DNA of 64,000 nucleotides, taken from assembly GCF_963675165.1 (NCBI RefSeq), contig NC_087382.1:496001-560000 (forward strand), read 5' to 3'. Origin of the DNA: Halichondria panicea (Eukaryota; Porifera; Demospongiae; Suberitida; Halichondriidae). The notes beneath the pieces are model-generated. The model had not been told where the DNA came from. It searched no databases and was given only the letters and a program-made list of their open reading frames with translations. Positions 18,162 through 64,000 of the stretch are shown in pieces (positions within the stretch are counted from its first letter, which is position 1; every line of letters starts with the position of its first letter). Position numbers and translations under genes: made by a program.

Positions 18162-18210
<49 letters not shown>

Positions 18211-19292: not shown

Positions 19293-19322
19293 TTTACAAA
19301 ATAATGCAGAGATAAGATTAGA

Positions 19323-29675: not shown

Positions 29676-29737
29676 TGCTGATTCAGCAATATTTTTGCAA
29701 CAAGCGATTCATACAAAAGGGGGCGTATCTTGTAGCT
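29676..29737 (+). promoter_or_regulatory. Promoter-like block of gene 4
   Basis: The palindrome TGCTGATTCAGCA (29676-29688) is followed by the core AAAAGGGGGCGTATCTTGTA (29715-29734), which lies about 10 bp before the ATG of gene 4. The 5' leader is therefore very short or the element lies in it. Confidence 0.6.
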
Positions 29738-29744
29738 GTACAAA

Positions 29745-32700
29745 ATGGCTGCAATGTTTTCTCTTCAAGATGACGCCAACTTGAGGGAGTTTGTGCTGGA
29801 GAATGTGGAGCACTTTGGAGATGAGAGAGTTCTAGGAACTGGCTCTTATGGCTCTGTTCAAGAGGTCAGTCACTGCATGCTCTGTTTCTGTGCACTGTCT
29901 CTAGTGTATCTGCTAGCTATTCAAGTGTGACTGCCTCCATGCACAGGTGATGATCAATGGTGAGGTGTATGCAGCCAAGAAGATCCACGAGGTTCTCCTG
30001 GAGACGGACGAGCGTGGTGGAGTGGCCAACATAGCTGGGAACTACCACCGAGAGTGTCGACTCATGGCTCGCATCCGTCACCCCAACATCACCCAGTTCA
30101 TTGGGCTGTGTTTCGTGACTGGCTCTCGACTGCCCCTCCTGGTCATGGAGAGGCTGGACTCAAGTCTGGACGATCTCCTAGAGTCCACCCCCAACATCCC
30201 CCTCTCTGTCTCCCAGTACATTCTGGTCTGTGTGGCTCGAGGGCTGCTCCACCTGCATCGTGAGTCCGTGGTCCATCGTGACCTCACTGCCAGGAACGTC
30301 CTGCTGACAGCATCTCTGAGAGCCAAGATCACTGACTTTGGTAACTCTCGTATCGTGAATCTGGAGCCTGGTCGACTGGCCAGGACTCTGACGAGGTTTC
30401 CTGGGACACTGGTGTACATGCCACCCGAGGCCCTCTCTGACAGAGGCCACAGTGTGTACGGACCCAGTCTGGACGTCTTCTCTTTCGGAGTGCTGCAATT
30501 ATTTGCACTCACACAAGTATGTTATTCGTTGGTAAATTCCTATAATTATTGATGACCTTCACTCCTAATGACATATTTATACACTTAATCAGTACTGTGG
30601 TATATATGTAGATTCCTCTAAAATGGTTGACCTTTTACCTGCAGCAAATGCATTGTGTACCAGAGGAGATAACGATAGGCGCGGTGCAGCTCAGGCAATT
30701 AGCCTTTGATTGAGCAATAATTATCCGCCCACGCCGTATGTTTTTGCTGAGAGTAATCAAAGGCTAATTACTTGAGCTGCACCGCGCCTGTCGTTACCTC
30801 CTCTGATTGTGTACTAATGGAATGATTGTGACACATGTACACTTCATACATACGTAAATGCAATCATGACACTCAGTATTGACATGCTCTTCCACTCCAG
30901 GTGTTTCCAGGAGATCTCCTTGTCCCCACGTACAGCGACCCCAACAACCCAGACCACCTCCTGGCTCGCTCAGAGTTTGAGCGTCGAGGTCCCTACACGG
31001 CTCTTCTTGAGAGGAGTCTGGCGGGTGGACGTGAGCACCCTCTGTTTGGTCTGGTGAGGGAGTGTTTGACCAACACCCCAGAGAGAAGACCGACCACCGC
31101 TGACCTCCTCTCGTCTCTGGAGGAGGTGGGGAGGGAGATGGACGGAGGACTGTTCCAGCTGGACATTGCACGAGTGAAGACTGCCAGGACCCTCAGGGCA
31201 AAGGAGAAGAGGATAGAGGTTCTACAGGTGAGTCCAGTCCAGTGAGCTAGTGGGTGCAAGGGTCTGACACTGCATGCTGTACTCTGTTCTCAGAGAGAGG
31301 TGGTCGAGAAGGACAGGATACTGGAGAGGAAAGATGAGCAACTTGTACAGAAAGACGATCAACTGGATCAGAAAAACGCACTTCTGGTACAAAAAGATGA
31401 GCAAGTAGCAGACAAAGATACTCAACTTGCTAGACAGCAACAGGTCAGTAGAATTTTTACTTCACTTTTTACACGCAATTTCGTATTATGCTAATCATGC
31501 AAGATAATTTCTCTTCATGCAGATATTGAATAGTGTCCATGCTACTGCTACCACCAAAGATGGTATGATTGCTGACAAGGACAGACAACTCAGCGAACAA
31601 GAGTCAAGGATCACTGATCTCATTTCCCAGAGAGAGGCTGCTCTAGTTGAGAGGGACGCTCTCTTACAGGTATTATAATAGTCACCAAATGCACACACTC
31701 TTGTACTCTAGTAATGTACATGAGTGCAGAATTGTCCACTGATACAATAATATTCACGTCTGTGTTCTAATTAGAAGATTTCCACCAACGTTCCCCTGTA
31801 CAGGTACACGGGGTACAGATGGAACACAATACTGAGCTGGTCAGGAGAGACGCCATCATTCAACAGCAGAGACAGGTGAGATGAATCCATATTATTGCAG
31901 AGCTATAGTAGAAGCTTTGATGTTATAGTTTGTGCATTCTAGTGGGCTGGTGGTCTTCACCTCTTAAGCTTCAGTATAGCGGGTAATTTTTGGGGGGCAA
32001 AATATTCGTGGCTCAGCCATTTTGAGACATTTCGTAGGTAATACTTTCATGGTTGCTGCTTGTACTGCAAGTAAAGGTAGGCAAGGTCGCTTCATTCGTA
32101 CAATATTCGTGGTCAGACCTTCAATCAGAAAACCACGAATATTTTGCCCCACGAAATTACCCTCCATACAATAATTAGAAAAAGTGATTTAGTGTGCATA
32201 CAATTATTGCTACAAGTAACACTCGCTTGTTAGTAGACACTATCCTAATTACACTCATTCATTATTCAGGGTCCCCCTCCCAGAGAGTTGAGACCTCCAC
32301 TCAGTCTGAAATGGAGAAGAGGAAAAGACATGCCAATCAAGATGGGCTACACAGTGCAGAGTGTTGTTATCGGTGACACGGCGTATGTTGGTGGAGGCAG
32401 TGCAGGCGATGATTGTAACGTGTGTACAGTGATGAAGCTCGAGCAAGATCAATGGACCAAACTACCAGAGTACACTGCCAAGTGGTTTGGTATGACATCA
32501 CTCGCTAATCGACTAGTGCTAGTGGGAGGACGTGATCCAAGAAACAACACACCCAGCAATCAACTTTCAGTGCTCGAGTCAGGGGAATGGACTCACCCGT
32601 ACCCACCAATGAACATTGCTCGTCAATCCTCAACAGCTGTCTCCTTCAACAACCACATAATTGTAGCTGGTGGGCGTGATGGTGATGGTCGTATCTCCTC

Positions 32701-37810: not shown

Positions 37811-40800
37811 ATGTCTGACTATCTCACAATAGCAGATCTAAACAAAGTGTACCTCGCTACGTTTGAAGCTCGAATTAAGTGGCGAAACATCTTGTTGATG
37901 CTCGAAGTCTCTGCAGCTACAATCAGAAGTATCAGCAGAGAATGGAACAATGATCCTGATGACTGCTATCGTGAGGGGCTGTTGGAATGGCTGAATGAAG
38001 GAGAGAGAAGCTGGCAATCTATGGTCAAAGCATTGTCCAGTCCTACTGTGGGCCACGTTCACATAGCCAGGACCATCGAGAGAGATCATCTACAGTCTAG
38101 CAATCCTACTGATGTGAAGTCAGAGGGTAAGTACCAACTAATGCAACCTATCAATAATATTCCCTACCCCCTTTCACCCAGAGGAGGTACGACACGAGTA
38201 CCTCGATTTAGCAATTACGCCCACGCTCAATGTTATTGCAGAGGCAATTCCTCGTGTCGTACCTCCTCTGCCACTCACCTAGGGCAATTAATCTCACAAG
38301 CCACACCACTTCACACGAAAAAGGATCTGGCAACAGTGTGCATGTGGAGTTGTCCCCTGCACCAGGACCCTGGCGCCGCCAAATCAGAGTGTAGAATTAG
38401 TAAAGCATCATTAACCCGCTCGTACCACACCCAATGATGTCATGATTTAGCATGCTGATACGAAACTAACCACGCCCACTCTATAGAGTGGACGTGGCAG
38501 AGTTACCACTGAAACAACCCCACAAGAAATGTGGCCTGCGAGACTATGGGGCGATATGGGGGTAACGTAGGGGAAGTGCCAACTGAACTCATTCCTGACG
38601 CTGTGTACTTTCCCCTATGTTACCCCTGTCCCCCATGTTGAGTAGGCCGCAATTTTTTGTCAACAATTACCACTAGGCCCTGGCAAATTATGCCGGCATA
38701 ATTGGGGCATAATAGGTTAGGTCATTATGCTGGCATAATTGGAGCACAATAGGGTTAAAATTTTGAATTTGGTCAGTTTGGTGCAAATGCAACGGTCCTC
38801 TGCTGCTGCTGAACGTGTTTTTTCTCTTTTAAATGCCTCTTACATCTAGAAGAATCTTCAGTTTCAGTTATGTTACAAATGAAATTATCTCTTGTTGTAT
38901 TGAAATGTACAATACAACAAGAGTTGTTATTACTGCTGAAAAAAGATTATTTATGACGTCAATATGGGGCATATGGGTTCTTTCGACGAGCATAATAGGC
39001 TGAATTTGGGGCACTGCTCAAAAGCATAACAGGCAGAAAAAGGAGCATAATTTGCCAGGGCCTAATTACCACCATGAAAACTTGTTTTGTCTAACACAAT
39101 AGCCGCCCTCGGTTCTTGTATTAAACAGCAGTCGAGGGCGGCTACAACCACGAATACCCACTATCAGGAGTGCATGAATAGGAGTATCCATGACACCCAC
39201 GCACATTCCACTCCATGCTTTCTCAGGGTGACATCACAAACACTTAGTAGTTGTGTAAACTGTGGTTTAGAGCCTAACCCAGAGGAGGTACGACACGGTC
39301 ACATGACCAGCCAAAAGGATTATGAATCTCATTAACTTGTTCATGAATATCATTCAAGACTGTACTTTGATAGTGGATTTGGTTTGGCGTGTATCTTTCA
39401 AGAAATACACTTGACGTTTCTAAGATGAGGATGGTTCATTGCTGGGCTTATACTGATGTGAAATAGCTTTTCAACCAGTTTCAACCACCACTTAGATTTT
39501 GAGATATTATTGTTTTTAGTGTAATTCTGTTTTAGAGTGTTTAATAAGTATTCTGTGCCTGCATTCAGGATAGGATCACTGCCAACATCTGAGCCTTGGT
39601 GGTTACAACAAATCTAATCTCTACTTGTAAAACTCTAGCTACTAGCCAGCAACAAATTCACTGAGTTTTATGCTCTAAACTTGTCTCTTTATGGCGCTTA
39701 CTTGCCACCAGTTGAATGTCGTCATTGGAATGCATTTTTAACGACTTCTTTGTCTTTCTTGCCTTCAATCAAGAAATAGCAGCCACGTGAGCTTAACGTG
39801 TCGTACCTCCTCTGAGCCTAACCCTAGGTTTGATTAGCACAAACCACAATACAAACAAGTGTCTTGCGCATTTTACAGAACTACCACGAGTAGAATATTA
39901 TTAACACCACCAAGCTAGTACTATACCAAGAAGAAGCCCATAGATTTGTTGTAGTCTCTACTAAAAAGCAATCCAGTTTATGTATACCATTGTGTTGTGT
40001 GACATTATGATCCACTATTGATGATCAATTCCCCTACCAATCTAAATACTCATTTCATTGATAGGTGCATAAGCACTATTCATATCTAATGCATAGAGCG
40101 GTTTGTTAGTTTACATCATTCCTCACTCACTCCCCAACCCACACACATTGTTCTGTACAGTTGAGCAGAAGATCAATGAAGATTTGACCATTTTCCTAGA
40201 TGAGCCACTCGGTAAAGGTGCATTTGGAGCAGTTTTCAAAGGCAGCTACAAGGGCGAGACTTGTGCAGTCAAAGTGCTGCTTCACGATGCTATGGAGATG
40301 CAGGCAAGTATTCCAGTCGGAAAAAGTGAAGAAGCTAGCAATGCAATTGATCGTGAGAGTGATTTTCTAAAATCGTTTCAGCACCCAAATGTTGTTCAGT
40401 TTTTGTCGACTGCCAAGCACCCCAAATCAGGTGGTACAATCCTCGTTGTTGAGCTGATGAATTGCAATCTGAGATCCTATTTCTCCGGTCTTAATGAAGA
40501 GTCACTCACTAGCGAATGTGAAATTAGCCTCTCCAAAGACATGGCTTGCGGTCTCGCCTACATTCATAGCAAGCAGATTATCCACCGTGACCTCAGTGGC
40601 GATAACGTCTTGCTGAAGCTCACACTGCCAGTGCCTGTTGCAAAGATTTCCGACTTTGGCATGTCACGGCTTTACGATTCCTCCAAGCTCAGCTCCACCC
40701 TCACAGCCATTTGTCACCGTAGAGGGTATCTACCTCCCGAGGCCTATCGATTGGAAGAGGAGAGTTATGATAGTAGCCTGGATGTGTTTTCCTATGGAGC

Positions 40801-43800
40801 GATTTTGACGCAGATTGTTTGCAAGTTAAAGAATATCAAATCAGCCAAGGATCGATCATTCCACGTTTCCCAGATCCCTCACACACACAAGTTGAGGAAG
40901 CTTATCGACAGTTGTTTGCAAGAAGACATGAGGAAGAGACCATCTGCCAGGGACATCTGTGAGTCTATTAGATAGTGTGTGATAATTTTACGCTTCTGAA
41001 AAATATGTTGATTTTCCTATTTAACGTTTAATTCTTAAATTAAGATGCTTCACTGACAAGAGACTCGGACTCAGTAGAGGCAGCAAAGAGGAACACTCTA
41101 CCAGTCAAGAAGGTGCATACATTCTCGGGTGCATTAAGGACTGGACCTTCAATTATTGCTGAATTTGCAAATTATAATCCCGCCCACACAGTTTCCATGG
41201 TTACTCCCACGCGTTCATTACTTCAACGTACTGCTCCCTTTTCATTTTGCAGTAATTCAGCGAAGTGACTTATTCAGCGTTCAAAACACCCTCTAGTGAT
41301 GCTTGTGAGGCAATACGTGACTTCCATAAGCCTTCCTTAGCTGATTTATCCTTGCATGTACTTGTCAACAAATTGTTGACCGTATCTCTGGGAAGCCTAT
41401 CCAAGATGAGGCTGCTACATCAAACAACTTCTGTTGTTTCTCCATTGCAAAGACCAGGAGGGCTAAGCGCTATAGCTAGAGTGAGTTGTTAGCTTATAGG
41501 TATAATGAGCAGCAGCAATAGCTAGTAGACTTCGTGTTAAAACACTGATTTTTCAATAGAAGAGTGAAATAGTGCTTCGACAAAACGGTGGGCGGGGGTT
41601 CATTTTATTATTTTCCTAGATAATTAGGGAAGCCAGTGTTTCATTTCATCATAAAAGTTTTACACATGCAGACTGATATATACACAGTAAACAGCAGCAG
41701 GTTTAAGTGCCTCTTATAATTATGTTGGTCCCAGTCCTTAATGCACCTGAGTTGCCACAACATCAAAAGTACTGTACCTATAGGTTTTGCGATTTTATTG
41801 TTGCGAATTGATCAACCCTCACAAAATTCGCATTATGTTTGATGCTCGCAAAACAAACGGTATAATTATACATCATTTTGAGTGTGCCTATAATTATGTA
41901 ATAGTCCTATTCATTTAAGAGCCTAGAACTTTGATTGCTCTTCCAACGCCTATGCTAATTATGCCTCGAGGCGTAGCCGCACGAGGGATACGGTAAAGCT
42001 GACTGTGTGTGTGTCTGTCTGTGTGTCTGTGTGTCTGTTCCAGCTGTAACTGCTCAACGGTTGCAATGCGACGAAAGCTACTGGCTTCTAGCCACGTTCT
42101 CTTGGATTTTGATTCGTGGATTAGCAAACTAAAGCTTCTTTCTCGAGTTATGGCTAGTTTGACTCACATTGAAGGCTGTTGCAGTCTCTTCAGAATCTTT
42201 CATAGCATCATCTGTCTGCACAAACTTTCTATTCAACATATGAGTTAGCCTTGCACTAAAGCGCTAGCTTTTTGTTAGCTACAATACTCAGAAAATATCT
42301 GTTAAAACAGCTAGCTAGCAGTATAGCCATTTGTGAAATTGATCTCTGGACACACCCTTTAATTATTCCTGTGGATGTAATGCGCATGCGCGCTCATTCC
42401 CCATGTGTGAGAAAATAATATCAGATCCAGATCCTCCTGGCAGAATCATCTTTGTCTTGAGGGCCTGGTAAGCCACAAAACACTACCATATAAAAATATA
42501 GATAACAATATGCATGTACACAGGTTTTTTCTTCTTAGATATTATATACACTGAACTACAGATCCTGGAAGAATCAATTTTCTTCTTTCTTGAGGTCCTG
42601 GTAAGCCACATAATACAATAAATAACAACAATAGATGCATGTAAATAAGTCTTTTCTTCTCAGTGACTTTATATAGATAAGCTAACTTTAATATAAAATT
42701 CATTATAGAAACTAATATAACACTCTAATACTTTTGAGCGAAAGCAAAAATATGGCGAGAGGCATTAGCACAGCGCCAGCTTGAACACTAGTTACTTTTG
42801 CAGTAACATTTTGCTGAGCTGGCACATTGAAGTCAATATAAAACCTAAACCCTGTACAGGCACACAGGGAACAGATTCAGCACAAAGATGCTGAGCTGGT
42901 CAGGAGAGACGCCATCATTCAACAGCAGAGACAGGTGAGACGAAATGCACTATTACATGTATAATTTGCCCTTGTTTTTTTTATCGAGCAACTGCTACTA
43001 TTTCACAATAAAAAAATAGTTGAACTGTGTGTGTGTGTGTTCCAGTGCTTAACAGTTGCAATGCGGCGAAAACTAACTGTTTCTATAGCCACGTTCTCTT
43101 GTATTTTGATTCGTGGATTTGCAAATTAAAAGCTTCTTTCGAGTTGGGCCTGGTATCGACTGCTTGCGCATGCGCTAACCATTAGCCATGCAGATACCGG
43201 CTAACGCAGGATAACAACGTGTATGCTCAGTAAAACAATGACGTCACAACGAACAGAAGTGGATTGAAGGAAAGTTCGATTGAAGGTTTCAGCCCGTCTG
43301 ATAGCATTCTGATAGCTATAGCCTGCTATATGCTAACAAAAGACTGCAAAGCCTTGCAACAGTGTGGATGACAATCGTGTGGACGGAGTGAAAGCTGACA
43401 AGAGCCTACTACAATATGGACAGGCCATGCCCATCTAAAACTAACTTTGGTGAAAGTCTACTATACTACTGCTATATACTGACTCTATCAGCTGTACATC
43501 TCTGTCTCTAGCTAGCTATATAGCTATATAGCTCTGCATGTGTATGTCTTTGTCAGGATTTGATAAACAGAAATTTTACGGGAAAAAATAGCCAATAATT
43601 TTGCGCATGCGCAAGCAGTCAGTAGCAGGCCTTCTCTTCAGGGGAGGCCAGTGAAGGAGGCTAGCTATATAGCTCTGTGTATGTCTTTGTCAGAACTTTT
43701 TCTCTGATAAATTCAGTATTACAGGAAATGTTACGGGGAAAACTAGCCATGCGCATGCAAGCAGTCAGTAGCAGACCTTCTCTTCAGGGGAGGGCAGTGA

Positions 43801-46800
43801 AGGAGGCTAATGCGCATTGAGCTGTTCTTTTACGTGGTATTTTAAAAATGCTGCCTCGAGGTACGCTTCGTTCAGTAATGTCGAAAAAAGTGACCATGCT
43901 TCAAGATCTTCGTACTACAACCTCAGTGAGGTTCTAGAGCAGCTATAGACAGTGAGAACATCGATGCTTATGGCCTTGTTGAGTGAGAGGACAGTGACTG
44001 GGATCATAGCTAGATAAGAAGCTACCTCAAGCTAGAAAATATAGAGCATGAAGAGCCTGAGGAAGAAGCTCTTGCGATGGACCAAGTTCTTGGATCTGGT
44101 AAGTCTAGAGTAGTCTTGATAGCTTCAGTATAACTGTATTTAGGCTAGTTAGTATAGCAGTGGACATCATGAACCACCATTGAACTTGTAAATCTGTGTG
44201 TAGGTGATTTCCCGGGAAAAGGGCGTTTGCTAATACGACCTCGCAGAGAAGTTTCTGCAGATCCTGATTGAACCATGTCACCATGAGAACATTGAGAGCA
44301 CTTGTTAATGCAGATTTTTCTCTATTTTTAGGGTACTAATTTTGGCGAATTTAAAGTTTGGAGTCTGATACAGATGAAAAAAGGGCTAACTTGCATAGCA
44401 TAATAATTATTATCAAAAGTACATTTTCATGAAAGAAAAAGTTTTTATTTTTGTTAATGAGTTCATTAAATGCGTTTTATTATTAGTGGATACTTAATTA
44501 AGGAACAAGGGGTAGCACTATTAGTAACTATCGGATCCTGGCCTAGATCTTTCACTATAATTATTGTACTACGTACGTAGCTATTATATAGCTATAGCTT
44601 AAGTTTTCAATGAAAGCACCACAGGTGCTAATGCCTCGGTGGAGGTGTCAAAGCTACATAACATATAAAGCTACTATAGCTATAAGCAATAGCATGCACG
44701 CATTTTTATCATGATTGCATTAATAAAATTAATTTTGCTGCATGCAGAATCACAGAGGAACTCAAAGAGTGCGTAATGATCGGTCATGATTGTTGTTGTA
44801 AACGATTCATGCCAAAAGTCTAAGTCTAAAATGAATGGTTGCATCCAGAGAAGGTACGACATCCGCGTGTCAAAGGAAGTTTTTTAAACTCACATTCCTT
44901 AGGTCAAAGTTCAATTGCGTATTACCTGCCAAACTTAAACATAAGCACTGGGCAATTTTTAGCTGCCAAGAGTCTGATTCGTGCACTGTTTGATCTAGGT
45001 TATAGCTATCAACCATCGTTTCAGCTTCAGAATCTTCAGGAGGGAGGCGGCCTGGAGTTGCTGTGAGTATCACTTTGTTTGATGTGCTATTGAACTTTGA
45101 CCAGGATATAATAAGGAATGTGGGTCTTTAAGACACAGATGTCTTACCTCCTCTGGGTTGCATCAGCAGAGCCTTGCAACTCTCTTTTAGCTTGCAGCTA
45201 TGGTACCAGTAGCTAGTGTTCTAGTGCAGAGCTAACTGTACTACGTATAGACTCCATGGACAAGCTTTTCTACGCACTCTTCTGAAAAGACTGCCATGGC
45301 ATTCCAAGTAAGCAAAACTCGAGAACGAAGCATTATTTTGCAAATCCACGAATTAAAATCCAACTAGAAGCCCATTACAGACCTGCCAACCTCTAATACT
45401 AAATTTATTTGGTAAAATCAAAGATTGTGCTTGAAATTATATGTTTCTCTAAATAACTCTTCCAATATAAAACAAAATAGTCTGGTAGAGCTGACATCAT
45501 TGTTTATTTTGTGGGTTTTGTGCACATCCTGCCACATGGCTCATTGGATTTTTCAATATTACTTCGGTTTGCACCTTTAATTGGAATGTTTACATGTGCA
45601 GTATTTAGAAATCAAACCGTGGCAAAAGTGTTTTGTGCTTGAAATTAGACCCCTTAGCCGGGATACCGGGAAGAGAGACAATTTTGAGGGATATTCCCGG
45701 TGGCAAGTATGCTATCAGGAGTGTATGAAGAGGAGTATCCAACTGTAGCAGTTGTAGTGTAAACCAGGTTTCGGTATGAGTATGTCATACTACGTCACTA
45801 TCAGACCGCATCTTAAGTGGGTGCGTAGGTGTATAGTGGTTAATTAATTTAAAATGAGCATACGTCTGCTGTCAGAGGAGGTTGACACGATCACGTGCAC
45901 CACTTTTTTTGCTGAGCTGGCACAAAAATTGACAATGAGTTCTATGTAAACTTCTAGCTGATGTTGCGCGGTCATTAGAGACTGAAGGCAAACTTTATGT
46001 GCCTCTCTGGCTTCTTTTGATATAAAACTTTCATTAACCAACCCGATCCCCTCTATTCTGGCGAGTTATCAGTGCATACAGTGTTTACTAGATTCTTGCC
46101 AGCCAGTACAATGCAAGCTATAGTCTAGCTAATCTTGGTCCAGCCAGACAACAGACACAGCTAGTCCGGTGTTACAAGTCAGCAAAGCAAGAGTATCCAT
46201 AACTTTTTTATTACAGTTATTTGGTATCTATGGTAACGTGAGCAGAGACCTTAGGAATGTCACATGATTGATGACGCATGGCCAACTTCCTCTGATCTGC
46301 TGTGGTTTGTACCTCCAGCCCCTAATGCTATAGAAACTCTTACCTTCACTTCTTATCCTAGTCTACACAGACACAACACACACACACAGACACACAAACA
46401 CACGTATACCTCTCTTGCGCATGCGCACCGAGGCATAATTAAATAATAAAAGCACTGCGGGTGCTGATGCCTCGGTGAGGTGTGCCAAAGCTACATAACA
46501 AAGCTACTATACATACATTATAATTATCATGATGAACATTTTTGCATTAATTAATTTTACTGCATGCAGGCAGGATCCAGAATCACAGGGAAAACTCGAA
46601 GAGTGGGTAATAATCGACCACGATTGTTATTAAAAACGATCGATGCCAAAAGGTAAAGTTCAAGTGTCTAAAATTGATGGCTGCATCAACAAAGCCTTGT
46701 AGCTCTCTTCTCACTCTTGCAGCTACCAATAGCTAGCGTTCTAGTGCAGAGCTAACTGCTAAGTAGAGTAGCAACACTCGGTGAACAAGTTTTGCTGAGC

Positions 46801-49800
46801 ACTCTTGAAAAGGCTGCAATGGCATTCCAAGTAAGCAAAACTAGGCATAACTCGAGAACAAAGCATTATTTTGCAAATCCCTGAATTAAAATCCAAGAAA
46901 ACATAACTAGAAGCCTATAAAAACTCTTACTTGCACTTCATTAATCCTTGAGCAGCTGTAGCAGTCTACACAGACAGACAGACAGACAGACATGCAGACA
47001 CACAAACACCGTATACCTCGCTGCGCATGCACACCGAGGTATAATTATGCTGACATAGCAATAATTGCCTTCGTGTGTTTTGGCAAACAGCTACACACAC
47101 CACGTGGATAAATGCGCATGCTTAATAGTATTGCCAATATCCATATAGCGGGTATATTTCGAAGGTATAAATTTTCGCGGATTTAATTTTCGTGGAATAA
47201 CAGCCTTTTTGCAGCATGCATGCATGCGATATTAAATTTGCAATTAATTAGGCCCTGATAAAATTAATTATGCTTTTTTCACCCATTATTCTATTCTTTA
47301 ATTCTTGAAAAATGTGCCTATTATTCTAATCCGATTATTCTCTGATTATTCTCATAAAAATGTATCCTAAAAAATGTGACATATAATCAGTAGACTCTCG
47401 TTAATCCGGTCACCCTTGGGACCATGCAGCTTGGCCGGAATAGCGAGGTGGCTGTATCTCAGGAAATAGCCGCGGCTTAAAAACGACCCTACCTCGAATC
47501 TAATGACTAATTTTGCGGTTCTTGTCTCGAGGATAATGTTATCTATTTAAGTGTAATCCAATTTTATTTGCTAAACCACGGTAAACGGAATAGCGAGTGG
47601 CCGTACTTCAGGGTGAGTTTTGTGCAGTAAACATATAGCTATATAGCATTCCGTGCCAAGCCAAATGGCCGGTATATCGAGGTGGCCGTACTTCAGAGAG
47701 CCGGAATAGCGAGAGTCTACTGTAGACATAAACACAACACACGACTGACATATGACATATTAATTAATATATCATGGTTCTCAGTGTTATCTTGCTGACT
47801 TGAACCAGGAGCCCATAAAGAGAAGGAGCGGCTAACTACGGGGATCACATCTCGTAATTGGTTATGACCGCATTTCCATATATGCAGGGTCACTAAGTGG
47901 TTGAATCCCTACACGTGTTATACGCAATGCAGGGATGCGGTTTGCAAGCACTTAGTCGCTTCCATACAAGGAAGTGCGATTTCACCGGCAATTACAAGAT
48001 GTGATCCCCGAGTGTACGTTGAAGTTGGGCGCTCCTTCTCTTTATGGGCTCCTGCTTGAACTGATCCACTAGAACATCATTATGCAAAACTTAATGTAAT
48101 GATCTTTACCAAAAATGAACATTGATGCCTATTATTCTTTAGTGCTGATCACATGATCTCCAGCCAATCAGCTTATCTGAAGGCAGTCAGGTAACCATGG
48201 ATTAAATAACTTAATCCACACTTAAGTGTGCTTTAAGTTGGTTAAGTGTGCTTTAAGTAGGTTTGTTAATGCACACTTTTTATCAAACAACCATAATACA
48301 AGCAGATTGAATCTGAATGTCATCATAATTATAATAATAATACAAGCAGATTGAATACGTACACAGCAAAGCTGAAAAGTATTAGAAAGTTGAATGTTAT
48401 CGTTTCAACTTGTTTCATGTGTAGTAAGTGTACCGAATTGCTGACTTGACCATAGCATCGCTTTTTCATCTGGAGAAATAGACTCAGCTTGCTTCGAAGA
48501 TGTACGTACCTGTACCTAAGCCAGATCCATATAATCGTTTCATCAAAGGTGCTTCGAATATCATAGCGTTCCAAAAGAGCAAACCAGATACTCATTGCCA
48601 TATAGTTTGCGCACAAAGTTTCCCATCCAGTAAGCCAGATCAGCTGGAGGCATATCCAGTAGTGGGATCGGGACTGCACTGTTGGTCAGCAGGAGAAATA
48701 AGTCGAGAACATGCCCAGTCAGTCCAGATAGCTTTAGATAGTATCTCCTTCTCCTTTGCATCAGTTACTGGATCTACAAACCTACTAAAACTTGCTATTA
48801 CGCCTAGCTAGCTAGCTAGCCACCAGCAACTGATTTAAAATGTAGCTAGATCTAGCTGCCACGAGGCTAGAGCTCACGTGACAGCACTAAATCCTTTAGA
48901 ACATACCTAGCCAAGTCACGTGTTTTAATGCTGGTGCACTCGGATGGCCTCTCGGTTACGTAATGCACTCGGCTGCACCTCGAGCACCACGTTAACCTCG
49001 AGGCCATCCTCGGCACGCAGATTAAAACACTTAATCTTGGCTAGGTGTGTTCTAAATAATACTTAGACACCTATTATATGCTAAAATTATTCCGAGCATA
49101 ATTTATCAGGGCCTATGCTTAATCCGTGAAAACCACAAACATTTATACCCTCGAAATATACCCGCTATACGGTACTTGAACTGACAATAAACCGGATAAA
49201 AGCTTGGAAATAAAGCTATTTGTGCGGAATTGCGATGTCAGACTGTTATTTTGTGCACTGAATGCATACAGACATGCACGTAGCCACACATGCAAGCGCA
49301 CACTGCCTGTGATTTGCTTCATTATCGTCGTAATTATTATATCCGTTTACAATGTCTATTTGTATTATTTGTTGTTTAATGTTTAATTCAATTTATTCGT
49401 AAATATACAAAGAAACTTATTCCCTCCTCTATAACACTCTAAATCAAAAGCGCAGCTTGTTAATAGACACTATCCTCGTTCATTATTCAGGGTCCTCCTC
49501 TCAGAGAGTTGAGACCTCCACTCACTCTGAAAAGAGGAAAAGACATGCCAATCGAGATGGGCACTTCGGTACAGAATGGTGACACAGTGTATGTCGGTGG
49601 AGATAATGCAGACAATGATCGTGATGTTGCAGCTACGGATGCCATAAGCACTGATCAGAACAGAGGACCCATCAACAATGACGACAAATACGAGGAAATT
49701 CGAAAAGCAGCAGCCTCTCTGATGCCAAAATCTATGCGAAAAATCGATGCAGTGCTGACTGAGGTAGAATCAACAACTCCAGCAAAATCAATTTCCATTC

Positions 49801-50756
49801 TTTTGACAGGAAAAACTGGTGTTGGAAAATCCACTCTAGCATATGGAATCTTGGGATTGAAAGTTGACGATGATCGTGCAGCACAAGAGGGTGGAAGCAT
49901 TAAGGCGAGGTGTACTACTGAAGTAAGAATGCATCAACAGAACAAAAATGGAGTCTTGATAACTGTTTGGGACAGCTCTGGGCTACAAGATGGTACCGAG
50001 GACCAAGATCAATATCTTCAGCAGATCAAGCTCAAATGCTCACAACTTGATCTGACGATGTATTGTATAAAAATGATTCAGACGAGGTTTGTTCGAGGCC
50101 ATGACAATCCAGACGTGGTAGCAATGGAAAAGTTCACAAAAGCATTCGGCTACGAATTTTGGAAAAGTACCATCATTGTCCTAACGTTTGCCAACATATT
50201 GACAGCAGTCAATCTGGAATGGGAGGATTTATCTAAGCTAAAAAAAGTCAAGGCATTTGAAGCGGAAGTACAAGAGTGGAAAGATAAGATCAGATTAATT
50301 TTGATTGATGATATCAAAGTACCACAGGAAATTGTGCACGGCATTAGGATAGTTCCAGCAGGGCACGCTAGGAGGCCAAATTTACCAGGAATTGAATACT
50401 GGCTTACGCATCTCTGGTTTCAATGCGTTTGGACAATGCCAACCAAGGGGGCACGAATCGCTATGGTGAAGATTAACGAGAAGCGAATGAAAAATGAAGA
50501 CGATGTAAGAGAAGATGGTGTAACAAGATGGACATCAGCAGATCAACAGCCACTTGTAGTGGTGGGTGATAGTAGTGCAATAAAAGTTGTAGCAATCAGT
50601 GGAACAAGTGGAGGTGCAGCTGGTGCTACGGTTGGTGCTTTGATTGGGCTGATTGGCGGTCCGCCAGGTGCTGCTCTCGGTGCAACAATTGGTGGTTTAA
50701 TTGGAGCGACGGTAGGTGGAGGTGCAGGAGGAATATACAAACACGTTACAAGCTGA
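37811..50756 (+). CDS. Death domain-kinase-coiled coil-GTPase-glycine zipper protein (gene 5), about 840 aa
   Basis: Exons 37811-38126 (DD, 1-105), 40161-40958 (kinase), 41045-41112 (linker), 42860-42934 (last coiled-coil exon) and 49491-50756 (residues 420-840); all phases fit and the frame ends at TGA. The kinase keeps GKGAFGAV, AVK, HRD, DFG and PPE. The last exon begins like every kelch exon of the array (GPPLRELRPPLTLK, then GDTVYVGG) but after about 40 residues becomes a P-loop GTPase: GKTGVGKST (526-534), a conserved CTTE, WDSSG (switch II, 579-583) and VLTFAN as a G4-like motif resembling AIG1/Toc34-type GTPases. It ends in a glycine zipper (about 791-834, repeated GxxxG such as GALIGLIGG and GATIGGLIGATVGGG), which could insert in membranes. 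The first two coiled-coil exons are missing. The 6.6-kb last intron is full of transposons, so co-splicing needs RNA support. Confidence 0.72.
38179..38270. mobile_element. Mutator-like MITE (92 bp)
   Basis: Ends CAGAGGAGGTACGACACGAG and CTCGTGTCGTACCTCCTCTG are perfect inverses. The flanks CCTTTCACC and CCACTCACC agree at 7 of 9 positions, a decayed 9-bp duplication. Confidence 0.8.
38674..39064. mobile_element. hAT-like MITE with 8-bp target duplication
   Basis: A 391-bp element with ends TAGGCCCTGGCAAATTATG and CATAATTTGCCAGGGCCTA, flanked by ATTACCAC at 38666-38673 and 39065-39072. An 8-bp duplication with short inverted ends is typical of hAT elements. A perfect inner hairpin (TCTTGTTGTATTG / CAATACAACAAGA) is at about 38890-38925. 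Confidence 0.85.
39280..39814. mobile_element. Mutator-like element with 9-bp target duplication (535 bp)
   Basis: Ends CAGAGGAGGTACGACACG and CGTGTCGTACCTCCTCTG, flanked on both sides by AGCCTAACC (39271-39279 and 39815-39823). No long ORF. Confidence 0.88.
41125..41757. mobile_element. TIR element in gene 5 (GGTGCATTAAGGACTGG ends)
   Basis: Inverted ends CGGGTGCATTAAGGACTGGA and CCAGTCCTTAATGCACC enclose about 630 bp directly after the linker donor of gene 5. It occupies the place where genes 2 and 6 carry their first coiled-coil exons. A short internal ORF has no recognisable domain. Confidence 0.7.
41930..42790. mobile_element. Inverted copy of the gene 3 intronic element
   Basis: The sequence from GCCTCGAGGCGTAGCCGCAC to the GGCGAGAGGCATTAGCACAG stretch is the approximate reverse complement of parts of 20243-21620. 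It ends about 70 bp before the only surviving coiled-coil exon of gene 5, so its arrival may be linked with loss of the first two coiled-coil exons. Confidence 0.6.
43800..44345. mobile_element. piggyBac-like fragment
   Basis: Diverged similarity to the interior of 13341-14243 (GTATTTT..TGCTGCCT, GACAGTGA.., TTTCCCGGGAAAAG). The TTAA ends are not visible, so it is an old fragment. It lies within the last intron of gene 5. Confidence 0.6.
44346..44845. other. Intronic stretch, no supported element
   Basis: A+T-rich. A GTGCTAATGCCTCGGTGGAGG segment at about 44625 recurs at 46455-46485 and belongs to the same scattered terminal repeats as the CCGAGGCATAAT-type ends. Nothing else seen. Confidence 0.4.
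44846..45155. mobile_element. Mutator-like element with 9-bp target duplication (310 bp)
   Basis: Ends CAGAGAAGGTACGACATC and GATGTCTTACCTCCTCTG, flanked by GGTTGCATC on both sides (44837-44845 and 45156-45164). Confidence 0.87.
45873..46294. mobile_element. Mutator-like element (about 420 bp), decayed
   Basis: Left end CAGAGGAGGTTGACACG, right end inverse of CAGAGGAAGTTGGCC. TCTGCTGT flanks both sides (45865-45872 and 46296-46303), 8 of the expected 9 bases. The inner part is unrelated to the other members. Confidence 0.65.
46330..47045. mobile_element. Element with CCGAGGCATAAT-type ends
   Basis: Two related segments each carry ACACACAAACAC..GTATACCTC..GCGCATGC.CACCGAGG, at 46385-46437 and 46987-47045, around a stretch (46690-46900) similar to 21000-21210 and 45180-45370. 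The pattern suggests nested or tandem copies of one family. Limits are approximate. Confidence 0.45.
47389..47724. mobile_element. pogo/Tigger-like MITE
   Basis: Ends CAGTAGACTCTCGTTAATCC and GGAATAGCGAGAGTCTACTG. The interior repeats GGCCGGAATAGCGAGGTGGC several times. The CAGTAGACTCTCG terminus is like that of pogo/Tigger elements of the mariner superfamily (family knowledge). Confidence 0.65.
47799..48062. repeat. Long palindrome (foldback element)
   Basis: Arms GAACCAGGAGCCCATAAAGA and TCTTTATGGGCTCCTGCTTG continue inward (AGAAGGAGCG / CGCTCCTTCT), with a second pair GGGGATCACATCT / AGATGTGATCCCC. It forms an almost full-length hairpin. Confidence 0.75.
48138..49068. mobile_element. Long interspersed repeat (copy B)
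   Basis: High similarity to 23648-24610 in gene 3, same orientation, with the same 165-bp terminal hairpin (48896-49060). This copy is inside the nested stack. Confidence 0.75.
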
Positions 50757-51354
50757 TATATATTTTGTAAGATTACTAAGTGTTGTTATTATTATGTGTA
50801 TGTGTGTGCACTTGACTAATTGTACATTGTTTACTTAGTTAATTTGTACTGTAGCTATGGTTTCTGTTATAGGTATGTTAATTACTTCCTGTGGAGCAGA
50901 GCCTCCTTTTGTGTTAACAATAGATTCTTTGTTGTAAAGAGGCCCTGCGCGTTTCTCTTGTTTTTGGTGCATGTATGATCTCTGTTTTGTCAGTTGTTAC
51001 TTTTGTCTATCTTGTTTAATGTTAAACCCTTGTCAAATCTTGAGCTGACTCCGCCGCTTATAGCTAGTTCTAGCACTCAACTCTGCCAACACTAAGGCCA
51101 TATATAGGGCCAGGCAAAGTAGATTAGCATCAAATGCATGGTTTTTGAAGTTGATGAGGTGATTATCATTATTTCATGTTGTGAGAAATGTGCTTTTCTA
51201 TCGTATAAGATTACATCAGAGATTGAGAATTTCGTTAATGTTTGTTTGGATTGTAAAATTAAAAGAGAAAAATAAAGTAAAAACAATGGCAAGAGTTCGT
51301 ACACATAATGTTTGATTTTACATATTACATTGTCGGTACAGAAATAGACAAGTC
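50757..51354. other. 3' flank of gene 5
   Basis: A+T-rich sequence after the GTPase stop. AATAAA-like AAATAAAG at about 51270 could be a polyadenylation signal. From about 51160 the sequence again resembles the flank downstream of gene 0's kelch (TTTCATGTTGTGAGAAATG), so the kelch-type 3' UTR survived the domain replacement. Confidence 0.5.
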
Positions 51355-52267
51355 TCATAACAAGTTCAGGTCCTTGGTTGGGGTCTTGTCCGAGGGTAGG
51401 GTGGACGCCTTCTCCCAGAATCCAAAGTCTATCTCCTCTTTCGAGTCAGACAGAGAGGGGTGGGGCTCGGGAACTGAGGGGTTAAAGAGTGACATGGTCA
51501 TAGTCATACTGAGTGGAAGTTTGAGGGCTTAGGAAGTAAGTGACAAGAAAATTGAATGAAAACTGGTTAAATGCAAAGTGGTTCAACAGTGATAAAAGGG
51601 ACACTATACACACATGTACTGGTGTACAATAATGTGTAGAAGTATCAGTAGTTTGACACTCTTCTCTTCTTATGCACTCTTGATTGAAGCATACCTTGTA
51701 TACAAGTGCATGTACATACAGACTAGTAAGCATGCTAGGTTCCCATTCTTTGTACTGTACATTCAATAGTACACAGTCGACTCATTGCACTGCATAACTA
51801 CACATTATACACACGTACCTTGTTCTTGATAAAGGTTCCTCAGTAGCCCCTGTCCAAGGACCTATGTCTTCAGACTGTCCCTCACTGCTTAGGCTGCTCA
51901 CCAGACTGGAGGTGGGCTGCATGTAAGGGCTGGGTGTCAGGGGAGTTTTTAGTCTCTGATGACAGACCCTTTTCCATACTGCTGAGGTCTGTTAGCATCT
52001 GAATGGCCAGTTTACTTGAGGCCCCTCTCTTAAAAGCATAGTAGGCCTAAAGGTGTGTGTGTGGGGGGGGGGGGGGGCGTACATGATTGTACATTGCACA
52101 CCTTCAAATACATTACAGGGAAACACACATCATGTGCTGAATAGGACACACTATAGCTGACCTTGAATAACTTTAAGGGACTCCACAAAGTTGACACAAA
52201 TGCATTTTCCAGCTAATGTGCTCTGTACCTGTACCTCCATTCTCAGTGCCTCTTCTTGTCTCCTCAA
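51355..52267 (-). CDS. Minus-strand acidic coiled-coil gene, exons (copy 5)
   Basis: The small exon 52267-52235 (LRRQEEALRME, acceptor CTCCTACAG), main exon 52046-51819 (AYYAFKRGASSK, then SSETKNSPDTQPL) and terminal exon 51473-51355 (EEIDFGFWEKASTLPSD) are present. The middle exon seen in copy 0 is absent, which breaks the phase between main and terminal exons. Convergent with gene 5. Family unknown. Confidence 0.45.
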
Positions 52268-53289: not shown

Positions 53290-53430
53290 CAGATGTCCCT
53301 GGCAGATGGTCTCCTCCTCATGTCTTCTTGCAAACAACTGTCAATAAGCTTCCTCCACCTGTGTGTGTGAGGGATCTGGGCAACATGTAATGATGGATCC
53401 TTGGCTGATTTGATGATCTCCAACAGGTGA
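53290..53430 (-). pseudogene. Antisense kinase 3'-end fragment (best preserved)
   Basis: The minus strand reads EIIKSAKDPSLHVAQIPHTH, then WRKLIDSCLQEDMRRRPSA and RDI, ending at the usual donor. This equals the last about 47 residues of the DD-gene kinase exon. It has no upstream kinase core. Confidence 0.8.
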
Positions 53431-54149
53431 CACTGGACAGTACGAGATCACGGAACTGGACAAGGGGGTGTGACAATGTGGGTGTGGCAATGTGAGTGTG
53501 CTGCTCTAAACTATAACATTTGTGGACTCTGTCAAGAGCTGCTTTAAGGAAAAGATGTAGCTCTATGGAATGTGGTACGTGTTTGTTTAGCTAGTGGATC
53601 TGATTTTAATCAAGACTTGCACAGTATGCATGTATACGTATGTGCTGTGTCAGCAGAAACCTTGAAGACCCATACGATAACTTGACTGACCAATTTCCAG
53701 TGTAAAAAATGTGTTCAGTAGCTTTTAGATTTATGGTGTGTTTAGCTTTAGCATCAAAATGACCAAACTAACTATAACCAGGACTTAACTTAATACTGTT
53801 ATAGCTCTTCCTAAAATTGCTCGTATAATTATTGTGTTTGAAATGAAGAAGTCATCACACTTTGTGTCTACTACCGTATTACTACTGCAATGTTTTAATT
53901 GTGAGTTTCAAACACTTGCAAACTTCGTGAGTGCTTATGACATTGCTAAAATAAGATTGCAAATACCTGTATATATACCAGTACTTGTATGATAATAGCA
54001 CGATCTTTCCTATTGAAAAGTTTCAAATGTTTCCTCAATCGTAAAGGCTTTTAAATTTGAACTCTGTACCCAGGCACATTGTTACAGTAGCAGTACAGTA
54101 TCTTAATGTACAGTGTGTATTCTTGTAGTATGGCAATACAATGTGTGTG

Positions 54150-54920
54150 TGCTTCCAAGGGGTTTAATCAATATCTCCATTCCTCCAGTCTTATCCCCCC
54201 GCCCACACACTCTCCACAGAGTCACTCCCAGAGTTCATAGTCCACCACACAATGGAAGAGCTGTGTATGCCTTGTTGACTGGTGCTCCCCCGAGACTCCG
54301 CCCCTTCTCCTGCCCAGCCCATCCCTCGGAGGAGACCAGCTGGTGTACAACAAGCACTGGAGCAGGTGGGTGGAGTTTGCAGTGTAGGAAGATTCCTAAG
54401 AACTGCTATATTATGTTACGTAGGTAGAGTACGTACGTTCAAAGTTTGTTAGAGAATCATCTTATTTGAAGCATGTCTGTAGTTTTTGGTTGGGTCAAAA
54501 CGATCAGTTTGCACATTTAAAAATTAAAGTTCATTAAAGGACCTTCTATATTGTTTAAAAAATATTCACAATAGCTTCATGTAATGGTGAAAAAACTTCA
54601 GAGAGGTCAGGGTTCACCCGTTACCCCATTACCTTATTACCGTACGTGCATGTAGGTAGCTATACATGAACTTGAACAAGCCATCACAATTATACACAGG
54701 TGTCAATATTAGTAAAACATTCCGCTCTCTGTGACTAATCCACAAATTCACAAAATATTCACGATTTTATATATACTATGTCCGTATTCCACACTACGCT
54801 AGTACACTATAATATTAACCGTCACTCCCCATGCATGTACAGGTGCTTTGGTATTGTCTACCACCCCTGCCTGCACAAGATGCTCTCAGCTACTCTTGTC
54901 TGATGTTTTCCGATGTTACA
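54150..54920 (+). pseudogene. Decayed exon cassette (copy C)
   Basis: Same as 8960-9715: the frameshift (missing CTAG) and deletion of the 56-bp exon are shared, so both defects predate the duplication of these two units. Confidence 0.45.
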
Positions 54921-55064
54921 TTAAAAAGAAACTATACAAACTAGCTTGAAATAATCAAGTGTTGTGTGTTGCATAGGAGTGCATGAATGCGTGGTGACAG
55001 TTGTATATTATTATCTTCCCACAATCATCTAAGTTGTGTCATGTTTGTTGTCTTGTAATCTCCG

Positions 55065-55113
55065 GCGCATGCGCAGTATACCAATGTGCAAGGAAAGAGG
55101 GCGTGTCTTGTAG
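55065..55113 (+). promoter_or_regulatory. Promoter-like block of gene 6
   Basis: GCGCATGCGCA (55065-55075) followed by GAAAGAGGGCGTGTCTTGTA, identical to the block of gene 2. Confidence 0.55.
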
Positions 55114-55330
55114 TTCATGAGTGTTGTTTGGTTTGTCTGCTGTTCCCTGGCCCTACTAGCTGGTGAAATCAAAGGGAAGATACTGTAGCCTCGACATATT
55201 TCAGTGAGTGCAGACAGCACTGCATGTGTACTGTATACGTACTGTACATGATTTACTTTAGAGCTGTGCACACCTATGTACTCCCTCCTATAAAGCATTC
55301 TTTATATCTATTCCACACTCTACAGAGAAG

Positions 55331-58300
55331 ATGTCTGACTATCTCACAATAGCAGATCTAAACAAAGTGTACCTCGCTACGTTTGAAGCTCGAAACATCT
55401 TGTTAATGCTCGAAGTCTCTGCAGCTACAATCAGAAGTATCAGCAAAGAATGGAACAATGATCCTGATGACTGCTATCGTGAGGGGCTGTTGGAATGGCT
55501 GAATGAAGGAGAGAGAAGCTGGCAATCTATGGTCAAAGCATTGTCCAGTCCTACTGTGGGCCACATTCACATAGCCAGGACTATCGAGAGAGATCATCTA
55601 CAGTCTAGCAATCCTACTGATGTGAAGTCGGAGGGTGAGTACCAATTAATTCACCTAGCTATATAAATGATATGCCCCACCTAGGGCGATTAGTCTTGCA
55701 AGCAAAGAAGGGTAGTGTCAAAATATTGACCATTCCACTACATTTCCCTAATGTGCTCCCCAGGTGGTGGGGGAGGAGACATATTATTGATAGGTGCATA
55801 ATTATGTCTAAAAATAGTTTACATACCGTATAGCGGGTATATTTCGAGCGTATAAAAATGTTCGCGGTTTTCGCGGATTGAGCCTGTACCGCAAAAATTT
55901 ATGAATAGTAGGCGTGTTCAGTATTATTGACCACACCTATGACAATAAGAGGTGCCTCACACAGGCTAGGCCTGGATTTGAGGCTAACGGTGTGGAGGTA
56001 CAGCTGCATGTTGATGTGCGCATGCGCCAAAAGGCTGGAACCAGACCACGAAAATAAAATCCGCGAAATTCTTTGTAATGGTCCATCCGCGAAAATTTAT
56101 ACCCTCGAAATATACCCGCTATACGGTAGTCATTCCTTACTACCCACTCATCCCACCCACACACATTTTTTTGTACAGTTGACCATAATCGTCAAAAGAT
56201 CAATAAAGATTTGACCGTTTTCTTAGACGGGCCACTCGGTAAAGGTGCATTTGGAGCAGTTTTCAAAGGCAGGTACAGGGGCGATCCTTGTGCAGTCAAA
56301 GTGCTGCTTCACGATGCTATGGAGATGCAGGCAAGTATTCCAGTTGGCAAAAATGAAGATGCTAGCAATGCAATTGATTGTGAGAGTGATTTTCTCAAGT
56401 CGTTCAAGCACCCAAACGTTGTGAAGTTTTTGTCGACTGCTAAGCACCCCAAATCAGGTGGTACAATCCTCGTTGTTGAGCTGATGGATTGCAATCTGAG
56501 ATCCTATTTCTCCAGCCTTGATGAAGTGTCCCTCACTAGCGAATGTGAAATTAGCCTATCCAAAGACATGGCTTGTGGTCTGGCCTACATTCACAGCAAG
56601 CAGATTATCCACCGTGACCTCTGTGGCGATAACGTCCTACTGAAGCTTACACTGTCAGTGCCTGTCGCAAAGATTTCCGACTTTGGCATGTCACGGCTTT
56701 ACGACCCCTCCAAGCTTAGCTCCACCCTAACAGCCATTAGCCACCGTAGAGGGTATTTACCTCCCGAGGCCTCTCGATTGGAAGAAGAGAATTACGATAG
56801 TAGCCTGGATGTGTTTTCCTTTGGGGTTATTTTGACACAGATTGTTTGCAAGTTGGAGACGATCAAATCAGCCAAGGATCGATCATTCCATGTTGCCCAG
56901 ATCCCTCGCACACACAGGTTGAGGAAGCTTATCGACAGTTGTTTGCAAGAAGACATGAAGAGGAGACCATCTGCCAGGGACATCCGTGAGTCTATTAGAT
57001 ACGTAGTGCATGATAATTATGTGTTTTACACTTCCGAAAAATGTGTCGATTTTTCATTTAATTCTTACTTTTAGATGCTTCACTGAAAAGAGACTCGGAC
57101 CCAATGGAGGCAGCAAAGAGGGAGACGAAGGACACTCAACCAGTCAAAAAGGTACGTACATGTACCGTAGAAACTGGATTATTAGCGCTTACTCGACTAT
57201 AAACGTATCTTTATTTTAAGCGGATGCTCAACTGCAGGCTTTTTATACTCGAATTGAAGTGCTTTTCCAATTATACGAAGGTTATTAGTGAAATTTTAGA
57301 ATTGATTCTTGTTTATCCGGGCTAGCTAGCTGAGCTAGTTAGCTTGTACTGTGCATGATAGCTATATAGCTTGTGATATCCATCTGGAAGGACTCTCTGG
57401 GCATGCTGTTCCCTTAATTGTCTGATCATGCTGAGAAAATGTGAGGCATGGATGAGGTCCTTTTATTCCAAGTTCCTGGTCAATATGATATAATATTATG
57501 AATTTAAATGAATTGTAAAATGAATTTTAACATAATAGTATGATATAGATCCAGTTAGCTTGCCTTGCTTGCATGCTCACTTCTTAGCCAGCTTGCGAGT
57601 CAGCTCTCATCACAGAGACATCCGGTTGCTGGGTGGGGCTCGAAATGACTGCATTATAGGTGCATTCTTGAATATAAGTGTATAGAGCTCTGCTATTGAC
57701 CCCAAAAGCGCATGCGCTAATAATCCAGTTTCTACGGTACTGTGTGATACAGAATGAGATTCCTAATTACAGCCACAAACAACAGTATAGGGTGCTGTTT
57801 CATTGTTAAGCATGTTAAGTTTCGTACGTAATTCAGGTTTTAAACTAACGAGCGCTAAGTCCCATAAATTAGAGCTAGCTAAATTACAATAAAAAACTGA
57901 TAATAGCTGTAGTAAAGCCATAATACCATATATAACGAGTAATTTTCGGGGGGCAAAATATTTGTGGTTGAGCAATATTTATATAGTCACTTCGTGGACA
58001 ATATTTTCGTGGTTGCTGCTTGCACTGCAGGTAAAGATAGACAAGGTCGTTTCATTCGTGAGTATTCGTGGTTAGACCTTCAACCACAAAAGCCACGAAA
58101 ATTACCCGCTATACGGTACCTTGACTAAAGGGGGGATCCGTGGCACCCTGGGATCTCCCCCTGGATCCGCCACTGTTTAGCGTAAATTTGTTCTGTAGTA
58201 CTGTAAATAATAGTCCATTCTACAATTATAATGTTTACAAGAGGATAGAGGCTCTACTGGTGAGTCCAGTCCAGTGAGCTAGTGAGCTAGTGGGTGCAAG

Positions 58301-61147: not shown

Positions 61148-61324
61148 TTTTTTTCATGTCCTTCGTGTTATAATTATAAATTAATGATACTTTTCTAGCA
61201 TAATAATTAAAGTTGCAACTGAATTTCGATTGGCAGCTATTAAAGATTATGCAAAAACAATCAATGGCATTAGTTGGTACATAATTAAATTTCCCGAATA
61301 GACAAGAAACCGACAATAATTATA

Positions 61325-63348: not shown

Positions 63349-63403
<55 letters not shown>

Positions 63404-63840
63404 GGTTTGGATGTGTCGGGTGTGGGTGTGTACTAATTAAACTAGAATCCTTTGTGGACATAAAATGAATAATTATATAAGAGCTGCAGCATAGTAGGCC
63501 TAAAGGTGTGTGTGTGTGTGTGTGGGGGGGGGGGGGAGGGGGATCGTACATGATTGTACATTGCACACCTTTAAATACATTACAGGGAAACACACATCAT
63601 GTGTTGAATAGGACACACTATTATAGCTGACCTTGAATGACTTTAAGGGACTCTACAAAGTATGACACAAATGTCCACCTCACCAGGTTAGTACAAACTC
63701 CGGGTGTGTTGCTACCGCTGGTTGCTAGGTGGAGCTCCGCTAGTAAGTTATCCTCATTGGGGTCAAAGTCCTCCTCACCAGGTTGGTACAAATCCTCAGG
63801 TCTGGTAGGGAGGGAAATACATGAACAGTAATAGTGTACG
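61325..63840 (-). CDS. Minus-strand acidic coiled-coil gene (copy 6, duplicate of copy 2)
   Basis: The terminal exon (61464-61325), main exon (about 62552-62323), the 40-codon exon near 63217-63336 and the DLYQPGEEDFDPNEDNLLAE exon near 63690-63800 are all as in copy 2. Exons further upstream lie beyond the window. The middle exon seen in copy 0 is absent here too. Family unknown. Confidence 0.48.
61515..61668. mobile_element. Mutator-like MITE, duplicate of 16325-16478
   Basis: CAGAGGAGGTACAACAACAT-ended element with GGAAGATTC flanks, carried by the segmental duplication. Confidence 0.85.
61784..62182. mobile_element. MITE, duplicate of 16594-16992
   Basis: TTGATTAAA..GCC-ended element carried by the duplication. 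Confidence 0.6.
63352..63402. repeat. (GT)n microsatellite, expanded in the duplicate
   Basis: The counterpart of 18164-18212, longer by a few GT units; a fast-changing marker between the two copies. Confidence 0.85.
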
Positions 63841-64000
63841 TGAATTCTGGCTAAAGCAATAATATTATTATAACTCTACAAACACAAACACATCTTTAAA
63901 ACTATACATGTAGCAAAGGCAATGGCTATAATAGTTTCAAGCAACTCCACCATAACACAAGCACTGGCAAAGGTCAAATACTCGTGTCATTAGAGGTCAT

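Follow-up and report, generated by a model that had tools for sequence, protein, structure and literature searches.

Death domains and tyrosine kinase-like (TKL) kinases are joined in IRAK4 and the RIPK proteins, whose death domains and kinases are activated by proximity and which, to our knowledge, carry no GTPase tail. GTPases of the AIG1/Toc34/IRG group dimerise or oligomerise when bound to GTP, many of them on membranes; those of the AIG1/Toc34 type have a P-loop of the form GxxxxGK[ST] and a switch II DxxG, and vertebrate-type GIMAP proteins have a conserved box between G3 and G4. Here we describe a five-exon gene of the sponge Halichondria panicea in which a death domain, a protein kinase domain and an AIG1/Toc34-type GTPase follow one another in a single open frame. 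It lies at 37811-50756 of a 64,000-nucleotide stretch (the window; positions 496001-560000 of contig NC_087382.1, hereafter C6). Coordinates without a contig name refer to the window, and genome searches covered 131.5 Mb in 39 contigs.

In Biomphalaria glabrata, AIG1 is found with N-terminal death domains and with a kinase domain, as described in the accessible part of PMC7053062. The sponge gene likewise joins AIG1 to a death fold and a kinase, but there the two occur as alternatives and not together, and that part of the article mentions no exchange of tails involving a kelch gene. AIG GTPase tails occur among the death-fold proteins of Crassostrea virginica, and lineage-specific death-fold/TRADD-N expansions with variable C-termini are described from Amphimedon, bivalves and amphioxus (available excerpts of PMC8195603). 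These resemble the present gene in their death-fold head and fast, variable C-terminus, whereas its head is of the death domain-kinase type; TRADD-N was not named in our Pfam scans, beyond which no search was aimed at it. Sponge death-domain genes and kelch genes respond to microbial signals as separate genes (PMC6208332, available excerpts), and GIMAP-family genes have been reported in Dysidea avara (PMC11229196). AIG/IAN genes are stated not to be found in Amphimedon (PMC11229196, and likewise the accessible part of PMC7053062), a reported absence on which AIG1-type genes of a sponge genome would bear.

A preliminary description of this DNA, made from the sequence alone, had called the combination undescribed. 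This may hold for the triple: a thin word search of the open PMC literature (titles and abstract openings) returned no death domain-kinase-AIG1 protein among the matches listed. It does not hold for AIG1 with a death domain or AIG1 with a kinase, both described in the excerpts of PMC7053062, or for AIG GTPases in death-fold proteins (PMC8195603). The donor-like gene, the second copy on another kinase head, the LTR-like unit past the stop codon and the near neutrality of amino-acid change reported below are additions to that description. The parts are ordinary, their combination is one for which we found no report, and the gene fusion itself is real and well resolved. It appears to be a new multidomain signalling gene caught soon after its birth, with donor-like gene, acceptor family and breakpoint visible in one genome.

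Replacement of a kelch tail by a GTPase

The gene reads on the plus strand as one frame of 841 residues, joined from exons at 37811-38126, 40161-40958, 41045-41112, 42860-42934 and 49491-50756 (stop included), and all four introns start with GT and end with AG, in agreement with the five in-phase exons originally drawn. The death domain comes first and the kinase second; two short exons follow, and the terminal exon consists of a kelch-type start and the GTPase. By its head exons and kelch acceptor the gene belongs to a family of death domain-kinase-kelch genes that is large and mostly arranged in tandem, and it lacks the kelch repeats of that family. With its relatives in the window it shares the head, the short exons, the acceptor, about 44 residues and the 3' flank, whereas it has a GTPase and no kelch body.

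The acceptor and the first ~44 residues of the terminal exon (49491-49622; ~40 residues in the preliminary description) are those of the family's kelch exons, with 84.6-90.2% ungapped identity to seven of them. Aligned with four kelch exons, this start differs by gaps of 6 nt and 9 nt, both in frame; one sits upstream of the first internal methionine of the exon. The two homologies meet abruptly, with eight kelch alignments running out at 49622-49625 and the GTPase alignment beginning at 49622. From there to 50777 the DNA is 91.2% identical to C6:7269342-7270489, a GTPase gene (the donor-like gene) that lies 6.7 Mb off on this contig and apparently has a single exon. The first ~19 codons of its frame are absent from the fusion. 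Divergence is similar on both sides of the breakpoint, 10-15% for the kelch-derived part against the seven kelch exons and 9% for the GTPase part against the donor-like gene, which fits one event. No match to kelch repeats was found from 49658 to the kelch exon of the next gene at 60266, and behind the GTPase exon the kelch-type 3' flank resumes (51351-52132, 82-96% identical to the flanks of other kelch exons); in four kelch genes of the window the same flank starts 182-191 bases past the stop codon. The flank behind the GTPase indicates that the GTPase now occupies the very position of the kelch body, replacement of a kelch exon by a GTPase having been proposed before; the borders of the exons and their phase are compatible with splicing of the new tail to the old head.

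The GTPase part (49622-50756, including a GxxxG-rich C-terminal tail and the stop codon) is supported by DNA homology, Pfam AIG1 and a structure model. Asked for in the preliminary description, a profile search of the terminal exon gave 45 bits for Pfam AIG1 (cut-off 27), and 26 of 27 aligned relatives matched AIG1 at E<=0.001. Toc34, IRG and GIMAP proteins were the top solved-structure matches of the GTPase profile, with septins, which also match by profile, close behind; assignment to the AIG1/Toc34 group is thereby upheld. The window copy has the P-loop GKTGVGKST and the switch II DSSG, and among the 27 rows D161 and G164 are invariant and the G, K and S of the P-loop are present in at least 90%. 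In the G4 region of the same rows L231 and T232 are invariant, with N235 in at least 90%. Compared with AIG1/Toc34/GIMAP GTPases (Pfam PF04548) the G domain is alike, but that of the fusion sits behind a kinase and reads LTFAN at G4.

Within the last 62 residues there are 12 GxxxG motifs against a shuffle mean of 4.7, a count reached by none of 2000 shuffles. The tail to which the preliminary description had drawn attention is thus statistically real; it is also present in several stand-alone GTPase relatives and is therefore not new to the fusion. A predicted model of the GTPase exon, built from the 27-row alignment, has a mean predicted local distance difference test score (pLDDT) of 66 and a predicted template modelling score (pTM) of 0.65. 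Block-mean pLDDT is 72-97 at exon residues 141-340 and below 50 at 1-66 and most of 360-421, so that most of the G domain is well predicted and the kelch-derived start and the tail are not reliably modelled.

Two possible carriers of the GTPase sequence were considered and set aside. A retrocopy might be expected to leave a poly-A tract, and none was seen where the GTPase homology stops on its 3' side; this test is not decisive, because the donor-like gene itself appears intronless. Directly past the end of that homology lies a long terminal repeat (LTR)-like unit of 311 bp (50781-51091), a label based on its ends (TGTTG...CAACA) and 5-bp target duplication (CTAAG) only. It is a discrete unit, and its own target duplication leads us to read it as a separate insertion and not as a transposable element that brought in the GTPase. 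Of 40 other matches 18 span most of the unit at 81-96% identity, and in five fetched copies similarity to the window stops at the same borders to within a few bases. The donor-like gene lies in C6:7260001-7280000, where AIG1-type GTPase genes with long open frames are clustered; one of these genes (C6:7275889 and 7276857) is broken by ~400 bases of other sequence.

The death domain was less readily named from the window copy itself. Exon 1 (residues 1-105) is an open frame that ends in phase 1 at a GT donor, and taken alone it does not match Pfam Death. A profile of 23 relatives, picked from 151 death-domain matches with the window copies included, matches the death domains of FADD (E 1.4e-7) and PIDD (E about 1e-3), and 14 of the 23 members match Pfam Death (best E 1.5e-8). 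The death domain originally proposed can thus be assigned to its superfamily through the family profile and the relatives, and not through Pfam on the window copy alone. A further death-domain match, at C6:5619341-5619601 (37% identity), lies inside an open frame of 1663 residues.

Exon 2 (residues 106-371) encodes the kinase (Pfam Pkinase, E 7.5e-40), in which a GKGAFG loop, the AVK lysine, HRD and DFG were read by eye. Its matches in the PDB include CTR1 (E 1.4e-18), CERK1 (E 4.5e-17) and IRAK4 (E 1.3e-16) among 868 sequences below 1e-10, and an EGFR construct, CTR1 and CERK1 all outscore IRAK4. A death domain followed by a kinase recalls IRAK4 and RIPK, but this kinase is as near to plant CTR1 and CERK1; a TKL, IRAK-like label would accordingly be fair but not exclusive. 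Against three paralogues the ratio of non-synonymous to synonymous substitution rates (dN/dS) of the kinase is 0.24-0.28.

Exon 3, a short linker, is supported by phase and by similar stretches elsewhere: it resembles 4336-4403 (91%, 68 bases), with shorter matches at three further places. Exon 4, with phase 0 on either side, encodes a charged stretch of 25 residues (AHREQIQHKDAELVRRDAIIQQQRQ) that may form a coil. At five other places in the window and C6:617001-655000, 73-75 of its bases are matched by sequence preceded by AG and followed by GT, and at three more only its last 44 bases are matched. The last intron is 6.5 kb long and contains, at 47800-48060, nested inverted repeats with arms of 38 nt (89%) and 22 nt (95%), possibly a small mobile element.

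A second copy on another kinase head

When 99 of 234 candidates from a genome search were scored, 35 proved to be GTPase places, and two of the 35 listed carry the kelch-derived start. One is the window copy; the other, at C6:643330-644595, lies 98 kb off and is 96% identical to it in amino acids. In a tree of 27 GTPase rows drawn from the 35 places, with an interrupted paralogue excluded, the two fused copies group together (100/99) and the donor-like gene adjoins both (96/93). Such a sharp breakpoint, together with recurrence of the same fused exon 98 kb away, argues against a chance juxtaposition.

About 10 kb of the window (41959-52132), comprising exon 4, the intron, the GTPase exon and the 3' flank, recurs at C6:634890-645977, where megablast aligns it in two pieces (99.0% and 98.3%) with 917 extra bases between them; over the stretch with the LTR-like unit the two copies are 99% identical. 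Upstream of this copy stands a different kinase, seemingly starting directly at the kinase (MAAMFS...) and without a death domain, for which reason we do not count it as another death domain-kinase-GTPase gene. It too has five exons, every one of a length divisible by three and in phase, giving 785 residues. A further 1.5 kb downstream is a kelch exon cut short at about residue 250, presumably the former tail of this second kinase gene.

The swap happened once, and two heads now carry the new tail. The in-place 3' flank in the window and the leftover kelch exon at the other locus suggest that the window copy is the original and the other the recipient. A new tail on a second kinase also points to the possible assembly of signalling proteins from interchangeable parts. 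In the window itself this second type of kinase was observed at 19305-22034 and 29736-31245; there too the gene seems to begin with the kinase (MAAMFS...) and to lack a death domain, and a kelch exon lies behind it.

Origin, function and competing explanations

As the best overall explanation we hold, with moderate confidence, that a family member underwent a tail swap and that its GTPase, provided that it is expressed, would gather the kinase head at a membrane. Its account of the birth of the gene is highly probable. A death domain-kinase-kelch member would have lost its kelch body, and most of an AIG1-type GTPase gene, of which the donor-like gene is the nearest relative, would have taken the vacated place. 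Provided that the exons are transcribed and spliced as one, use of the former kelch acceptor would give a death domain-kinase-GTPase protein, and ~10 kb with exon 4 and the new tail would have been copied behind the second kinase head. The working mechanism is a tentative proposal by analogy: like other AIG1/Toc34 GTPases, the tail may dimerise when GTP-bound and sit at the membrane by a glycine-rich hairpin, and the clustered kinase and death-domain heads might then be activated by proximity, replacing recognition by the kelch propeller. If expressed, the gene would allow two questions to be tested directly: whether a membrane module switched by nucleotides can stand in for a recognition propeller when attached to a death domain-kinase head, and by what route large immune-like families acquire new parts.

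Several findings weigh against this explanation. The G4 motif is non-canonical, the LTFAN of the window copy departing from the [NT]KxD of canonical small GTPases; the tail helices (379-389 and 391-411) were modelled only at low confidence; and 8.5 kb separate the end of the kinase from the GTPase tail, against a median of 704 bp among 85 kinase-tail distances. Compared with the donor-like gene, the GTPase parts of the two copies have near-neutral dN/dS (0.90 and 0.78), the donor-like gene against the interrupted paralogue giving 0.78, and between the copies the ratio is 2.08 (3 synonymous, 21 non-synonymous). Synonymous to non-synonymous codon changes number 12:30 on the fusion stem, 11:32 on the outgroup side and 5:5 on the donor-like branch, counted with the interrupted paralogue (larger dS) as outgroup and with 11 complex codons and the codons differing between copies excluded. 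Sequences simulated under neutrality remained free of stops in 17% of cases with 45 substitutions and 11% with 60. The two copies differ more in the exon (24 substitutions in 1266 bases) than in most 500-base intron blocks, and the absence of indels from the exon has a chance of ~0.12 by its length alone. In favour of function stand the chance of ~0.002 obtained by the substitution clock and the 57 substitutions and 15 indels in the rest of the shared segment (81 and 15 in total).

Near-neutral dN/dS, codon-change ratios like those of the interrupted paralogue, the divergence of the exon and the recent copies and fragments in the cluster would all fit a drifting chimera without function, a by-product of recombination in an unstable cluster whose frame has not yet been broken. 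We nevertheless judge this unlikely: both frames are open with neither stop nor frameshift despite the 15 indels in the remaining shared segment, the kelch-derived start has only in-frame gaps, and the splice borders are intact. The family's kelch tails, taken as functional, are fast as well (dN/dS 0.45-0.94, against 0.24-0.37 for the kinases, the near-identical pair b-f left out). Taken together, the evidence on function that can be drawn from the sequences is mixed.

The 6.5-kb intron before the terminal exon, the in-frame methionines in the kelch-derived stretch and a nearest relative that is apparently a stand-alone single-exon gene could also be explained by a GTPase exon used alone, with its own promoter and a start codon in that stretch, the kinase exons being a separate or truncated product. 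This seems improbable, as both copies have kept the acceptor and the frame before the first internal methionine, where one of the in-frame gaps lies, and the in-phase exon 4 precedes the same exon in both genes. The upstream region of the donor-like gene, moreover, was not carried along, homology beginning ~19 codons inside its frame. The region is repetitive, as would suit an assembly error or collapsed haplotypes joining unrelated genes, but an open frame crosses the breakpoint and the same breakpoint occurs in two copies 98 kb apart behind different upstream genes, which makes such an artefact scarcely credible.

Divergence between the copies is uneven along the shared segment: 2.0% at its start, 0-1.2% in the intron blocks at 42459-49458, up to 3.4% in the exon and 0.8-2.3% behind it, and parts may therefore have been converted. 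Eight of the 24 exon differences fall within 32 bases (50183-50214), and at each of the eight the second copy agrees with the donor-like gene; elsewhere in the genome nothing matches the version of the window copy with up to 3 mismatches. This cluster points to conversion or clustered mutation. Positive selection, as the ratio of 2.08 might suggest, was considered and rejected as weak, with 3 synonymous changes against 5.5 expected and 8 of the 24 differences clustered.

The wider gene family and its cluster

Of 142 kinase places found in the genome, 121 were examined for their tails. A listed kelch exon lies within 15 kb behind 84 of them and a fused GTPase behind one; the 36 with neither are no evidence for other tails, because further kelch exons may lie beyond those listed and only two fused GTPase places were entered in the count. 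A broader reading is that the cluster works as a head-tail assembly system, in which exons with phase-0 borders form a cassette that can be swapped (kelch to GTPase), moved between kinase heads (death domain-kinase 1 to kinase 2) and then diversified quickly, the organism making new signalling receptors by tail exchange, including the first death domain-kinase-GTPase protein. We consider this broader reading doubtful.

Between the genes of the window, minus-strand open frames recur at 1604-1978, 17941-18243 and 63128-63436; a Pfam scan of three such stretches (1604-1975, 17941-18240 and 51092-51442) had no hit at E<=0.01. Two blocks, 8149-18808 and 53323-64000, are 98.8% identical over 10.7 kb, and each contains one complete death domain-kinase-kelch gene. 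Between the two kelch exons there are no synonymous changes and one non-synonymous change, and this near-identity indicates a recent duplication that runs past the end of the window.

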